From: Deltaproteobacteria bacterium
Lineage (GTDB): Bacteria; Desulfobacterota; GWC2-55-46
Reading direction: 5' to 3'
Assembly (NCBI GenBank): GCA_016182655.1
Contig: JACPGB010000028.1
Location: forward strand, 1-64,000
Length of the DNA stretch: 64,000 nucleotides
The notes beneath the pieces are model-generated. The model did no database searches. It was not told the DNA's origin and was given only the letters and a program-made list of their open reading frames with translations. The first letter of the stretch is position 1. Each line of letters begins with the position of its first letter. Positions 3,890 through 46,973 of this stretch are shown here, piece after piece. The position numbers and the translations under genes were made by a program.

Positions 3890-4085
3890 CCGGGGCCTTT
3901 AGGGTCTTATGCGCCCTTTCAGGCCCGGATTTTTAAACTCCTCCCCCGCGACATGCCGTGTCAGTAGTTTTTTGAACCTGCCGAAACAGGTGGGGCCTTA
4001 GTTTACTTGCATTCGACTTTCCCGCGAAGGGACATGCCGGCCGCGAGTCAGGGAAAGCCCCTGTTTTAGAATGTTGGTTCTAAAA
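3890..4085 (-). ncRNA. ssrS: Probable 6S RNA (SsrS)
   Basis: Non-coding gap between zapA and the cyclo-ligase, the classic ssrS position. Minus strand has ...aaggccccACCTGtttcggCAGGTtcaaaaaactactgacacGGCATgtcgcggggga..., resembling the 6S 3' half; CTCGCG/CGCGGG can form a closing stem. Ends approximate. Confidence 0.62.
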
Positions 4086-4129
4086 ACCCTACTAAAGCAC
4101 AAACACGGCAGGGGAGGAGATCGATTCAG

Positions 4130-37304: not shown

Positions 37305-38483
37305 TCAGAGCATCCTTAAAAAAACCGAATCCGAGAGGACCGCGCCTTTATGCGTCAGGACAAGGTCCTCGCCGCTCGACGCTACAAGCCCTTCGCTGAT
37401 CAGCGCCTCCGAGGCCGGGAAGGCCTCCTTGGGAAAGAGGCCGAACCGTGCCCGAAAACAGCCGCCCTTGATGCCTCTTTCAAGCATCCGCAACCCCAGG
37501 ACCATGGACTCGAGCATGGATTCGTTTCTCGCAAGCGTCTCATCCCCTTTTATCGCAGAGCCTTTCGCGGAGACGCCTTCGATATACTCCTCAAGAGAGG
37601 GCGTGTTCCACCATCTCCTGCCCCACTCAGGGAAGGAGAGGAACGAATGCGCGGCCACGCCGCACCCTATGTAGTCATCGCTACGCCAGTACCGGCTGTT
37701 GTGGACGGCTTCCATTCCTGGCCTGGCCCAGTTCGATATCCCGTAATGGCGATATCCCGCGTCCTTTAAGGCGCGGACGGCGTGCTCGTACATCTCCGCC
37801 ACATCGTCTTCGGTCGGGAGCCTCTTCGTATCTTTATATTGTTTAAAGAACCCGGTCCCTTCCTCGAGCGTAAGACCGTAGAGCGATATATGCTCCGGGT
37901 CGAGCGCGAGCAGGCCTGCCACACTTTTCTCCCAGTCCTCGACCGACTGGCCCGGGACGCCGAATATGAGGTCGAGCCCGATGTTCTCAAAGCCCGCAGC
38001 GCGCGCCTCCTTGAAGGCTTTGACGGCGCGCTCCGCCGTGTGCGTCCTCCCGAGCGTGCCGAGTATCCTGTCGTCGAGGGACTGCACGCCTATGCTTATC
38101 CTCGTGACCCCGGCCTCGTAAAAGCCCTTGAGCCTTTCAAGCGAGACGGCATCCGGGTTCGCCTCTATAGTAACCTCTATCGGCTTTCCATGGACGGCGA
38201 ACGCATCCCTTACGGAACCTACGAGTCTTTTTACGACGGGGGGTGAGAGGAGCGCAGGCGTGCCTCCGCCGAAGTATATCGTCTCAAGCGGCCTCTTCGA
38301 GAGCCCCTCTCTTTCAATGACAGAGGAAAGCTCCTTTATAAGGGCGTCGGCGTACGCGCCCTCCTCGGCGTGGGTAAGCCCCGGCTTGGCGATTGACTTG
38401 AAGTCGCAGTACGGGCATTTACGGAGACAGAAGGGGATGTGCAGATATACCCCTATCGTCCTTTCCTCTCCCTGTACTCCCAT
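37305..38483 (-). CDS. hemW: HemW / coproporphyrinogen III oxidase-like radical SAM protein
   Basis: VYLHIPFCLRKCPYCDFKS, YFGGGTPALL. Confidence 0.92.
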   Translation of the reverse strand: MGVQGEERTIGVYLHIPFCLRKCPYCDFKSIAKPGLTHAEEGAYADALIKELSSVIEREGLSKRPLETIYFGGGTPALLSPPVVKRLVGSVRDAFAVHGKPIEVTIEANPDAVSLERLKGFYEAGVTRISIGVQSLDDRILGTLGRTHTAERAVKAFKEARAAGFENIGLDLIFGVPGQSVEDWEKSVAGLLALDPEHISLYGLTLEEGTGFFKQYKDTKRLPTEDDVAEMYEHAVRALKDAGYRHYGISNWARPGMEAVHNSRYWRSDDYIGCGVAAHSFLSFPEWGRRWWNTPSLEEYIEGVSAKGSAIKGDETLARNESMLESMVLGLRMLERGIKGGCFRARFGLFPKEAFPASEALISEGLVASSGEDLVLTHKGAVLSDSVFLRML

Positions 38484-38875
38484 ATCCTCTCCAACATATC
38501 TTTCGGCGTGATCCTGCCCAAAAGCCTCATCCCGTCGTCGACGACGAATACGGAAAGCGCCTTTTTACCTTCCATCAACGCCATGACCGACGAAGCCTCG
38601 GCCTCGGGGCCTGTGTGGACAAAGGCCCTCTCCATGAGGTCCTCGACCTTCCTGCCTTCGAGCCCGGCAACGCCGTCGCTTAAGTTTAACGCCCCGTCTG
38701 ATTCGAGGACGGAGAGGCCTTTCAAGAGGTCCCTTGCCTCTATCTGCCCGACGAGCCTCCCTTCGCCGTCGACCACGGGGGCGACTTCCGAGTCCTTCAA
38801 TGCCTTAAGCGCATCGGCTATCGTCGAGCCGACGCGGAGCGCCTCCGCCATACCCATTATGTTCGCCGCTACCAT
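38453..38875 (-). CDS. CBS-domain protein
   Basis: Two CBS repeats (VAPVVDGEGRLVGQIEARDLL; ALSVFVVDDGMRLLGRITPKDML). Confidence 0.85.
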   Translation of the reverse strand: MVAANIMGMAEALRVGSTIADALKALKDSEVAPVVDGEGRLVGQIEARDLLKGLSVLESDGALNLSDGVAGLEGRKVEDLMERAFVHTGPEAEASSVMALMEGKKALSVFVVDDGMRLLGRITPKDMLERIWEYRERKGR

Positions 38876-38960
38876 TGAACGCTCCGGGAAGGTGTTTATC
38901 CATTTATGATAACAGATAATGGGGTGTTAACCCAATCTAATCTCACAGCCTAAAAACCCC

Positions 38961-38989
38961 TTGACAAAATAAGACCGCGACATTATTAT
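38961..38989 (+). promoter_or_regulatory. Sigma70-type promoter feeding the ZTP riboswitch
   Basis: TTGACA (38961-38966) - 17 nt - TATTAT (38984-38989). Confidence 0.75.
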
Positions 38990-39012
38990 AGGGCCTCTAC
39001 CTGAAAATTGAA

Positions 39013-39093
39013 GCCTTACCGCAACTGACGGAATCAAGATGGGGGACCATCGGGGAGCGGGGGGGCGGGGTTTAATGTCGACCGTCTGGGCAC
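39013..39093 (+). promoter_or_regulatory. ZTP (ZMP/pfl) riboswitch aptamer
   Basis: GCCTTACCGCAACTGACGGaatcaaGATGGgggaCCATCGGGGAGCGGGGGGGCgggg...CCGTCTGGGCA: P1 gccttaccgc/gcgggggggc, P2 GATGG/CCATC with GGGGAGCG, GACGG/CCGTC and terminal CCGYCUGGGCA match the pfl consensus. Confidence 0.9.
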
Positions 39094-39146
39094 TCGAACC
39101 AGCTCTATGAAAAGAGCCGAAAAGGGCGCGCCCGGGCGGTTTTTTT
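39082..39146 (+). terminator. Intrinsic terminator overlapping the aptamer 3' strand
   Basis: 39082-39091 CCGTCTGGGC pairs fully (with G-U) with 39130-39139 GCCCGGGCGG, followed by 7 T's. Confidence 0.85.
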
Positions 39147-39238
39147 GTTTTCGGCCTGCTCCGGGCAAAAAAGATTGACAAATCAAGGGGATGAGACGGA
39201 AAATATCCCGTTATCCCCTGAAAATAAGGAGAAGGGTC

Positions 39239-40657
39239 ATGTACTGGGTCAATCTATTCAGGCAACGAAAGATCTTGAACCTGTTTTTATACGGCATCGC
39301 CTTTGCGCTGGTATTTTCACCTGCGGGCCTCTTTGCGAATGAGGCGGCGACGGAAGGCGGCGCGGCGCACGCGGCCGCGTCATTCCCGCTCATATTCCTC
39401 TGGATAGCGATAATCCTCATGCTCGCGAAGGTCTCTGCCCTTATCGAGCGCGTCGGTCAGCCGGCGGTCCTGGGAGAGCTCCTTATAGGCGTCGTCCTCG
39501 GCTCCCTCTACCTCTTCGGCATAAACTTCTTCGAAGACATTAAGACCAACGAGATAATCCACTTCCTCGCCGAGCTCGGCGTCGTCATACTCCTTTTCCA
39601 GATAGGGATTGAATCAAGCGTTAAGACGATGATGAAGGTCGGCGTCCCGTCCTTCCTCGTCGCCTGCGTCGGAGTCATACTCCCATTTGTCGCTGTCTAC
39701 TTCGGCGGCCCCTGGCTCGCTCCGGGGCTTAGCAGTGTGGCCTACATGTTCCTCGGCGCGACCATGACCGCGACTTCCGTCGGGATCACCGCCCGCGTGC
39801 TCCAGGACCTCGGCAAGGCCCACACCGCCGAGGCGAGGACGATCATAGGCGCGGCGGTCATAGACGACGTACTCGGCCTCATAATACTCGCGGTGGTATC
39901 GGCCATCGTCATACAGGGCTCGATAGACGCGAAGACGCTCACGATCATAATCCTTAAGGCCGTAGCCTTCCTCGGCGGCGGCATAATCATAGGCGGCTGG
40001 CTCGCCCCCAGGTTCAGCAAGTTCTTCTCCAAGGTCCACACCGGCGTAGGGATGAAGTTCGCGGTCGTCATATTCTTCGGACTCGTGTTCGCCTACCTCG
40101 CCGCGCTCGTCGGGCTCGCGCCCATCGTCGGCGCGTTCGCGGGCGGCTTGATACTCACCCCCGTATACTTCGACGAATTCACGGACCCCGGGTTCGTAAC
40201 GGACCTTAAGACCGCGATGCGGGAGGAGCATGTCAACGGCGCGCTCTCCGAGAAGCTCGACAACATCATACACACCCATTCGCACAGGCATATAGAGGAG
40301 TTCGTCCAGCATCTCGGTCACTTCTTCATCCCCATCTTCTTCGTTTTGACCGGCATGCAGGTCAAGGTCTCGGCGCTCATGGACATGAAGGTCGTGATGA
40401 TGGCGGTCCTTATCCTGATAGTTGCGTTGATCACCAAGGTGCTCGCCGGATGGGCCGCCGGAAAGGGCATGAACAAGCTCGCCGTTGGCGTGGGCATGAT
40501 ACCCCGCGGAGAGGTCGGGCTCATATTCGCCAACATGGGAAAGACGATGGGGGTCATGGACGACGCCGTATTCTCGGCGATGGTCATAGTCATCATGGGC
40601 ACGACCCTTGTAACGCCGCCGATGCTTGCCGCGGTCTTCAGACGTATTCAGGCATAA
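39239..40657 (+). CDS. Kef/CPA2-type cation:proton antiporter
   Basis: Multi-TM; QPAVLGELLIGVVLG, GATMTATSVGITARVLQDLG, GMIPRGEVGLIFANMG. Start at ATG 39239 with aaggag RBS rather than 39191. Confidence 0.92.
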   Translation: MYWVNLFRQRKILNLFLYGIAFALVFSPAGLFANEAATEGGAAHAAASFPLIFLWIAIILMLAKVSALIERVGQPAVLGELLIGVVLGSLYLFGINFFEDIKTNEIIHFLAELGVVILLFQIGIESSVKTMMKVGVPSFLVACVGVILPFVAVYFGGPWLAPGLSSVAYMFLGATMTATSVGITARVLQDLGKAHTAEARTIIGAAVIDDVLGLIILAVVSAIVIQGSIDAKTLTIIILKAVAFLGGGIIIGGWLAPRFSKFFSKVHTGVGMKFAVVIFFGLVFAYLAALVGLAPIVGAFAGGLILTPVYFDEFTDPGFVTDLKTAMREEHVNGALSEKLDNIIHTHSHRHIEEFVQHLGHFFIPIFFVLTGMQVKVSALMDMKVVMMAVLILIVALITKVLAGWAAGKGMNKLAVGVGMIPRGEVGLIFANMGKTMGVMDDAVFSAMVIVIMGTTLVTPPMLAAVFRRIQA

Positions 40658-40735: not shown

Positions 40736-41599
40736 CTATCCCGGCATCCTCGCCCGGAACTTCCTTACGAACCCCACAGGCTTATAGCTCTCCTTCGCCT
40801 GCCTTAAGCCCTCGTCCCCCAGGTCCTGCTCGCGGTTTATAAGCGCGTACTTATCAGGCAGTATGGCGGCAAAGGACTGGTTCACGAACTGCAGGAGCCC
40901 CTTGTAGTCCCCTACCCCCTTCTCGAAGTGGATGACGAAAGTCGAGGGGTTCAGCTCCTCTCCAAGAGTGAAGGCGGCGGGCTTGCCCTCGACGTAATAT
41001 ATCCCTCCGCAGAGCTGGAGAGAGTCCATGTTCTGGAGCGCCTCTTTAGCGGCCTCGTAGTCGCCAGGGACCCTTGAGCCCTTTTTCCACTCCTCGTTCA
41101 CAAAAAGGGCGTCGTCCATGTATTCGGCGAGGAGGGGCCTGCCTTCGAACCTGTATTTTCCGACAAAGGCGTTCACGAGGTTCTTCTTCCTGTGGAACTT
41201 CCTGCCCGAGAGCTTCGAGAGCTCTTCCCGGCTATAGAGATAGTCGAAGTTGTCCCTGTCCTCGGATATCTCGTAACCTCGGCCCTGAAGCTCCCTTGCC
41301 TGTTCGGCGGCCGCCGCCTTCATTTGTCCGAAGCTTTGAAAGAGCCTTTTAAGGAGGGCATCCCCGGGCAACCCGAAAGGGAGCATGAAAAAAGGCGTCC
41401 CAAAGTCGTTGCCGGTTATCGCGAGGAGCCCTCCTTCGAGAGAGGTGGCGGCGTAGTTGTGCACATTCCTGAACAGGTAGAGGTTCGCGAAGGAGAGCTC
41501 CGAGATTTCCGGCGAAAGCGCCTGGAAAAGGGGGTGCAGGACAGGCCGCATTTCGATGGTAACCGGCGATATCTCAGGGAATTCAGGGATATTCTTCAT
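40736..41599 (-). CDS. DUF2156-family (phosphatidylglycerol lysyltransferase C-terminal-like) protein
   Basis: FANLYLFRNVHNYAA...RKKNLVNAFVGKYRFEGRPL...GGIYYVEGKPAAFTLGEELNPSTFVIHFEKGVGDYKGLLQFVNQSFA. Confidence 0.82.
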   Translation of the reverse strand: MKNIPEFPEISPVTIEMRPVLHPLFQALSPEISELSFANLYLFRNVHNYAATSLEGGLLAITGNDFGTPFFMLPFGLPGDALLKRLFQSFGQMKAAAAEQARELQGRGYEISEDRDNFDYLYSREELSKLSGRKFHRKKNLVNAFVGKYRFEGRPLLAEYMDDALFVNEEWKKGSRVPGDYEAAKEALQNMDSLQLCGGIYYVEGKPAAFTLGEELNPSTFVIHFEKGVGDYKGLLQFVNQSFAAILPDKYALINREQDLGDEGLRQAKESYKPVGFVRKFRARMPG

Positions 41600-44303: not shown

Positions 44304-46973
44304 TTACTGGAGTCTTATATCGGTCTCAAGTGCCTTGTTTTCAGGGCCGTAGACTACTTTCAAGCGCCCGCCCTCGTCGACTGAAAGGGTTACCTCGGTC
44401 GAGCCCTGTATCGGATTATTAAACGGGAGCGAGACCGTCCGCATGCCCTCGAGACCCAAGCCCGCGATCTCCCTTATCTCCTGCTTGAGGAACTCGATGC
44501 CGCCTTCCAGTGTCCACCTCCTGGCGATGAGCCCCTCGGGGACCTCGAAAAGCTCGAGCGTCATCTCGCTCTGCTCACCCAACTTCCTCGCCGGGGCGAC
44601 CGAGAAAGTCTTCTCCAGCGGAAGGGTCTCCCCCTTCTCGAGGACTATGCAGTAGGAGTGCGTCTCTTCCTTGCCCGCGGGCGCGTACCTTACGGCGTAG
44701 GCCAGACCCAGGTGCCTGTCGGTTATGTCCTTCGTCGCGTAGAGCGCCGCGCCGGAGGCCACGGCTGACAGGGGGCTATGGTCGTATATGGCGTTCTCTT
44801 TCCTCAACCTGGGGAAGAGGTCCCCTATCTTGGCCTTGAAGGACGGTATCTGCGAGGAACCCCCTGTAAGGAGGACCGCCTCAAGCCTCTCCTTTTTGAC
44901 GCCGACCTTCTCGGCCCTTCTGAGCACGTACGAGACCGTCCTGTCTATGAACTTATAGAACTCGTTCCTCTCGAGCACCTCTTCGAATTCGGTCCTCGTT
45001 ACGCGCGCGACCTCTCGCCCCTCCCACTCGAACGGGACCTCGTCCTTGTCCGACAACGCTATCTTTATGTGCTCGGCCTTGTGTATGAGCCTGTACGGCA
45101 GGTTCTCGGCCTCAAGGCCGATCATGCCGGCAAGGTGGCGCGCGAGCCAGATGTCGATATCATGCCCGCCAAGCAACTGCGCTCGCTCGGGCTTCGATAC
45201 GACATGGACCTCCTTGAGGTTCAGCCTTAAGACCATCGTGTTCAGGGTCGAGCCGCCGAAGTCTATGAGCATGACGACCTTGTCCCTCTCCTCCACGACC
45301 TGGTAGCCGACGGCCGCGGCAAGGGGCTCCTCTATGAACTCGACCTTCGAGCCCTTCATGTGGCGCGCGGCGATTCCCGAGAGCGCGGCCTTGTAGTCCT
45401 GATAGCCGATCGGCACCGTGATGTAGATCGTCTCGGCGACGCTCTTCGTCCCGAACGGGAGCCAGCCGCCGGGGACCGTGGCCTTACGCAGGTGCTGGGA
45501 GAGGAGTTTCAGGAACCTCTCCATGTAGTCCCTGCCCCTGGCGTTGCCCTCAAGGAGCATCTGCTTTATGTTGACTATCGGGTTCTCCTCGGCGACCTCC
45601 GTCCCGATGTTGTTCGTCTCGGCGCTTAAGACCGTAGGCACGACGAGCGTGCCGTCGCTGTAGCGCCTCGTTATCATCGGGAGCGGCAGGAACTCCGGGT
45701 CGGCCCCCCTGCCGCCGGCCCTCCTCCTCATGATGACGGTGTTAGTCGCGCCGAGGTCTATGGCGATGGTGTCGCCGGCGGACTCCGTCTTCCTCTGTAT
45801 GTAGCGCCCCTGCCCGTCCGGGTTCCGCTCCTTTACGAAGAGCGGCCTTTCTATCTCCCGGCCGTGGTAAGTCTTCTCGAGCGTGACGAGGCGGTCGACG
45901 ACTTTCCTTACCGCATCGCGGAGCCCCTTCGGCTGTACCCATACGTGGGTATACGGCTTCAAAATCTCTATGAACCGCGTGTCGTTGAGTTTTGTCCCGA
46001 ACTTCTCGATCTCGGTTGCGAGTGTCGTCGCGTACTTCTCCCTGGTGAACCGCTTCTGCTTCGACTCCTTCATCCCGAGCTCCTCGGCCGAAAGGATGAA
46101 GTCGACGACGTCGAGCACCTCGACGTCGCCCATCCACTTCTTTACGGTAAAAAATGAGAGCGCCTGCTCGACGGCTTCCTTGAGAATGGGGAAGAACTCG
46201 GGGGTCTTGGGCAGGACCTGTATCATCTCGATGAGGTTGTACTCCCTGGCGAACGGGTCTGTCGAGTCCGTAGCGGCCTTGAATGCGCCCCTCATGGCCT
46301 CGACGCGGAGCTCCGCGCAGCCCTCGACCGCCTTCAGCTCCTCGGCAATGAAAAGCATGGCGTACTTCCTGTAATAGGGCTCGGTAAGTATGCCTATGGC
46401 CTCCATCGCCCGCCTGACGCCATCTTTGTAGACGTCGAGGAACGCTCCGTCCTTGGGCATCGCCTTCGCGATCCCGAGCAGAGTGTACCTCCTGTAGAAG
46501 TCCTCGTCGCTCGCCTTCGGGAGGTCCTTGGCGACGAGCTCTATCGCCCTGTCCTTAAGCCTCGGCTTGTCGGCGAGCCCGAGCGCGAGCCTCCACGCGC
46601 GGACCCTCGACGGCAGAAACTCCGCGGTCTTCGGCATCTCGTTTGCGAGCTTCATGAGCTCGGTCGTCCTGTACTGGTGCTCATCGAGGGAGTCGGCGGC
46701 GTTTATGGCCTCGTCGACGGCGTCGGCGTAAAAGGGGCGGAAGAGCTCGGTATTGGGGAGTTCCTTTATATAGTCGAGGACGGCCTTCCTCTTTTCAGAC
46801 GGGTCGCCGACCTTGTCGATCAGTTCGTAGGCGAGCTTGAAGAGCACGAGAGCGTCGGCGCTCTTCGGGAGTTCCCGGACCGCCTTCATGAGGACGCCCC
46901 TTAACGGCTCGTCAAAGGCCGAGCCGTCCCTAACTGCGTAGAGCGCCTGTCTTGCCTTTTCCAGATCCGTCAT
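44304..46973 (-). CDS. Hsp70-family protein with about 330-aa helical N-terminal extension
   Basis: TIAIDLGATNTVIMRR, MLIDFGGSTLNTMVLRL, AVLLTGGSSQIPSFKAKI (Hsp70 ATPase motifs) after a long alpha-helical N-terminus. Confidence 0.9.
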   Translation of the reverse strand: MTDLEKARQALYAVRDGSAFDEPLRGVLMKAVRELPKSADALVLFKLAYELIDKVGDPSEKRKAVLDYIKELPNTELFRPFYADAVDEAINAADSLDEHQYRTTELMKLANEMPKTAEFLPSRVRAWRLALGLADKPRLKDRAIELVAKDLPKASDEDFYRRYTLLGIAKAMPKDGAFLDVYKDGVRRAMEAIGILTEPYYRKYAMLFIAEELKAVEGCAELRVEAMRGAFKAATDSTDPFAREYNLIEMIQVLPKTPEFFPILKEAVEQALSFFTVKKWMGDVEVLDVVDFILSAEELGMKESKQKRFTREKYATTLATEIEKFGTKLNDTRFIEILKPYTHVWVQPKGLRDAVRKVVDRLVTLEKTYHGREIERPLFVKERNPDGQGRYIQRKTESAGDTIAIDLGATNTVIMRRRAGGRGADPEFLPLPMITRRYSDGTLVVPTVLSAETNNIGTEVAEENPIVNIKQMLLEGNARGRDYMERFLKLLSQHLRKATVPGGWLPFGTKSVAETIYITVPIGYQDYKAALSGIAARHMKGSKVEFIEEPLAAAVGYQVVEERDKVVMLIDFGGSTLNTMVLRLNLKEVHVVSKPERAQLLGGHDIDIWLARHLAGMIGLEAENLPYRLIHKAEHIKIALSDKDEVPFEWEGREVARVTRTEFEEVLERNEFYKFIDRTVSYVLRRAEKVGVKKERLEAVLLTGGSSQIPSFKAKIGDLFPRLRKENAIYDHSPLSAVASGAALYATKDITDRHLGLAYAVRYAPAGKEETHSYCIVLEKGETLPLEKTFSVAPARKLGEQSEMTLELFEVPEGLIARRWTLEGGIEFLKQEIREIAGLGLEGMRTVSLPFNNPIQGSTEVTLSVDEGGRLKVVYGPENKALETDIRLQ

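Follow-up and report, generated by a model that had tools for sequence, protein, structure and literature searches.

The window, by which we mean the whole stretch of 64,000 nucleotides that was analysed, contains a gene for a cation:proton antiporter preceded by an RNA leader, with one promoter-like site upstream of this leader and another between the leader and the gene. The features of the locus are as follows.

38961–38989, + strand: promoter P1 of the riboswitch leader, TTGACA-17-TATTAT, a promoter-like consensus match
39011–39098, + strand: ZMP/ZTP riboswitch aptamer (RF01750), a covariance model match with conserved base pairs and pseudoknot
39027–39031, + strand: 5' strand of the pseudoknot, GACGG, from fold and alignment
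39038–39051, + strand: P2 hairpin (stem P2), GATGGGGGACCATC, from fold and alignment
39082–39091, + strand: switch strand, CCGTCTGGGC, the pseudoknot and P3 3' strand, which doubles as the 5' arm of the terminator
39130–39146, + strand: terminator 3' arm, GCCCGGGCGG, and T7, with an equivalent in 5/5 genus copies
39175–39204, + strand: promoter P2, TTGACA-18-GAAAAT, between terminator and gene, a promoter-like consensus match
39239–40657, + strand: NapA-like CPA2 cation:proton antiporter (PF00999), 472 aa, with a DD motif at residues 209–210

The likely start codon of the antiporter is 39239 rather than the upstream in-frame ATG at 39191, because an AAGGAG-like site is present there and homology to relatives begins there. 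Both of the flanking genes that we judged to be real (38453–38875 and 40736–41599) lie on the opposite strand, and the antiporter is therefore probably transcribed alone. The protein combines the PF00999 domain, NapA homology and the DD motif. Three solved relatives were found, the Na+/H+ antiporter chains 4BWZ, 5BZ2 and 5BZ3 of the NapA kind (E-values of 1.2e-56 to 3.9e-56), with which the segment AAVIDDVLGL aligns exactly, although these chains comprise 385–394 aa as against 472 aa here and the N-terminal stretch of the window protein falls outside the match. Members of CPA2 that mediate K+ efflux carry QD, whereas DD members are electrogenic Na+/H+ exchangers. The preliminary description of this DNA had termed the gene Kef-type, an identity that we reject; the protein shares the CPA2 superfamily with KefC but carries DD, and it scores 32 bits with the KefC model (NF002924) against a cut-off of 752. 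A contig scan for antiporter relatives returned four loci, all of them close relatives. Elsewhere in the window, a 6S RNA (RF00013, 69.4 bits) lies at 3939–4117 on the minus strand, and an 889-aa ORF with a part that appears Hsp70-like by eye at 44304–46973, also on the minus strand.

The leader matched the RF01750 covariance model over its full length at 39011–39098 on the plus strand, with 57.2 bits (gathering score 39) and E-values of 1.2e-6 for the 64 kb window searched with 4227 families and 1.3e-8 for the genome. We aligned 105 aptamers, of which 98 come from the class and 7 from other parts of the phylum. Nearly all of them retain the inner P1 pairs, the P2 pairs, the pseudoknot and the inner P3 pairs, and several pairs show two-sided exchanges; conservation is poor at the outermost P1 and P3 pairs of the Rfam model. 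The pseudoknot is formed by GACGG and CCGUC (39082–39086), each pair being retained in 101–105 of the 105 aptamers with an A-U/G-C exchange at 39028/39085. Pair 39039/39050 of stem P2 is A-U in every napA copy and G-C in 98/105 aptamers. A chance match to RF01750 was rejected on the score, the E-values and the conserved pairs of the alignment. Judged from its sequence, the element is a genuine ZTP riboswitch that belongs to a known class, as had been proposed, and the point of interest is its unusual regulon.

The terminator 3' arm spans 39130–39139 and T7 39140–39146. An unconstrained minimum-energy fold of the whole leader (39004–39146, -55.0 kcal/mol) pairs 39080–39091 with 39130–39141, which is the terminator, and the switch strand thus has two alternative partners, namely GACGG at 39027–39031 or the arm at 39130–39139. 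A generic terminator scan did not report this terminator because it permitted loops of only 3–8 nt. The element resembles the pfl RNA motif (RF01750) in its full-length match, the pseudoknot between J1/2 and the P3 loop, the UGG in the P3 loop and a terminator built from the P3 strand (PMC7337938), and the ZMP switch of Thermosinus, examined by NMR and ITC, is an ON switch of the same arrangement (PMC7337938). It differs from that motif in having an antiporter as target and a second promoter-like site past the terminator. The published targets of ZTP riboswitches that were covered here belong for the most part to purine and formyl-THF metabolism (PMC2864571). A purine or one-carbon target is usual but optional for this riboswitch, and the first gene here is instead the PF00999 antiporter. 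The preliminary description was right on most of these points: promoter P1, the P2 hairpin, the GACGG pairing and the terminator 3' arm with T7 are all where it had placed them, its 3' strand of stem P1 was roughly right (Rfam places it at 39057–39066), the fold agrees with its proposal of an ON switch in which aptamer and terminator exclude each other, and its view of the antiporter as an unusual first gene is borne out.

Promoter P1 is a strong sigma-70-like site that fits 11/12 consensus positions, and its hexamers are identical in 4/5 genus copies, the four whose contig extends that far. Promoter P2 was missing from the preliminary description. Two promoter-like sites were observed in 38900–39300 as against an average of 0.3 in shuffles, both calls being consensus matches. 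At the position of promoter P2, TTGACA/GAAAAT is found in 3/5 genus copies, TTGAAA/GAGAAT in one and CTGAAA/TAGAAT in one. An inverted repeat, AGGGGAT-20-ATCCCCT (39186–39219), spans the -10 region of promoter P2 and may serve as an operator or fold into an RNA hairpin; arms resembling it were seen by eye in some relatives.

The riboswitch cassette precedes the antiporter in 5/5 genus genomes examined, with core, pseudoknot and terminator conserved in each. No RF01750 match was present in the upstream regions searched of five orthologues from other genera (L103–L107, 67–75% identity). In the upstream stretches read of these five riboswitch-less orthologues, 4/5 have a TTGA(C/A)A site. L103, L104 and L105 have a single site, which lies 98, 132 and 126 bases, respectively, ahead of the reading point; L106 has two (254 and 95 bases) and L107 has none in the approximately 180 upstream bases available, so that a single promoter cannot be claimed for every one of the five. 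Promoter P2 aligns with the site of L103, and L104, L105 and L106 each have a TTGACA site about as far from the gene. These comparisons are most simply explained if the genus gained promoter P1, aptamer and terminator upstream of an older promoter, although the cassette may instead have been lost in the other genera. In a tree of cassettes the five napA copies form one group (94/96) that is closest, with moderate support, to the aminotransferase cassettes (93/88, 89/59), and copying of the napA cassette from an aminotransferase locus is possible but weakly supported.

ZTP riboswitches are widespread in this class. Four RF01750 elements are present in the genome of the window, and such elements were found in 29/30 genomes in a family search and in 47/63 genomes in a class search. 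We surveyed the first genes downstream of about 106 elements from the 47 class genomes by sequence clustering, with each cluster named from one representative; many of these genomes are fragmented into numerous contigs, and the relatives that carry names are metagenome assemblies. The first genes are monomeric NADP-isocitrate dehydrogenase (icd; 36 clustered and one short piece named by eye, the assignment of element G003:C62 being provisional), rnfC (30), a class V aminotransferase (21), the antiporter napA (5), sucC (4), pntA (3), inorganic pyrophosphatase (2) and, in one case each, KUP, another NADP-isocitrate dehydrogenase and an ATP-citrate-lyase-like gene. No purine or folate enzyme occurs among the recognised first genes of these approximately 106 class elements. 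In genome G000, serA comes after the aminotransferase and other rnf-type genes come after rnfC; none of its four RF01750 elements lies at purH or fhs, though the genome has both genes. The KUP case in G059, from another family of the class, provides a second monovalent-cation transporter behind a ZTP riboswitch.

A downstream arm flanked by a T-run and complementary to the switch strand was detected at 5/5 napA, 36/37 icd and 20/21 aminotransferase loci, as compared with 32/520 positives among shuffled controls (a lenient, mononucleotide shuffle); only 14/30 rnfC loci passed this test. A site like promoter P2 is clear at napA and most icd loci and weak elsewhere. Among the icd loci (L035 and others), the best -35 in the interval between terminator and start is an exact TTGACA in 28/37, and 16 of these 28 have a spacer of 17 and TTTA(G/C/T)T.

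Outside the class, RF01750 was found in only 7 genomes of the phylum sample, where the first genes, named by eye, are glyA, fhs, serA, the same class V aminotransferase and a BenE-like transporter. Two fhs-linked aptamers elsewhere in the phylum have nearly the same core as the class aptamers, and because of this shared core the class aptamers likely sense ZMP/ZTP.

The best explanation of the locus, which we regard as very probable, is a transcriptional ON ZTP riboswitch before a NapA-like antiporter, in a cassette placed ahead of what appears to be an older promoter. The aptamer, pseudoknot, terminator complementarity, conservation and gene neighbours on which it draws are read directly from the DNA; an A-G mismatch at pair 39018/39061 of stem P1 in the window copy counts against it. 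Transcription from promoter P1 would produce the aptamer RNA. Without ZMP/ZTP, CCGUCUGGGC (39082–39091) would pair with 39130–39139 and RNA polymerase would halt at T7; with ZMP/ZTP, the GACGG/CCGUC pseudoknot would retain the switch strand and permit read-through into the gene for a NapA-like antiporter, exchanging protons presumably for Na+ (or K+). Because a second, probably older promoter lies downstream of the terminator, the riboswitch need not gate all transcription of the antiporter. The cassette probably adds ZTP-inducible transcription to this older promoter, so that induced expression would stack on a basal level from promoter P2, and the effect of the riboswitch would be small if promoter P2 is strong. 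The cassette would then be part of a class-wide set of ZTP riboswitches at central energy, redox, serine-synthesis and ion genes.

Two other readings have to be weighed against this one. The leader may be real but functionally detached, with the antiporter driven by promoter P2 alone and promoter P1 yielding a short terminated relic or small RNA. We consider this unlikely; promoter P2 is well placed between terminator and gene and is partly conserved, but aptamer and terminator are retained in all five genus genomes and promoter P1 in all four that are readable, and most class cassettes stand immediately before one of a few kinds of gene, which would be unexpected of a relic. Less probable still is a shift of the class aptamers to a different ligand, one tied to the energy or ion state of the cell. 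Such a shift would suit the class targets icd, rnf, sucC, pntA, kup and napA, which are neither purine nor folate genes. An altered ligand is, however, disfavoured by the identity of the core to that of the two fhs-linked aptamers, the same aminotransferase carries the switch outside the class too, and an aminotransferase–serA operon is suited to one-carbon supply.

If the ZTP riboswitch reading holds, ZTP control in a little-studied lineage likely reaches beyond purine and folate enzymes and takes in ion transport and central energy metabolism. The preliminary description had coupled ion homeostasis to folate/purine stress, which captures part of the picture but is too narrow for a class-wide and mostly non-folate set. 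The serine-synthesis operon links the riboswitches to one-carbon supply (serine to glyA), and NADPH, Rnf and cation exchange may act in support of this supply. A broader and more tentative proposal, somewhat more likely wrong than right, is that ZTP has come to report on energy and ion state in this class as a general alarmone. Its riboswitches, instead of standing at purH or fhs, would raise the supply of NADPH (icd, pntA), serine synthesis, TCA genes, the Rnf ion pump and the transport of monovalent cations (napA, kup), and at napA and icd they would add inducible transcription ahead of a basal promoter. The survey provides a concrete gene set for a role of the 10-formyl-THF alarmone beyond one-carbon metabolism, and the cassette, apparently acquired ahead of an older promoter, illustrates clearly how a riboswitch regulon may expand.

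The novelty of the class targets is provisional: a literature search whose coverage did not extend to the main target lists found neither a ZTP riboswitch with rnf nor a pfl RNA with isocitrate dehydrogenase, and in one ZTP riboswitch paper that mentions an antiporter, the sole occurrence is a reference title on fluoride CLC antiporters. The top match of the class search (68.1 bits; L140, G059:C60:6812) precedes the KUP K+ transporter. Sub-threshold RF01750 matches (L080, L082 and L083) were observed before ppa and pntA; two of these three are cut short, with P3 following a long insert and the P3 strand and a terminator-like arm lying farther on.
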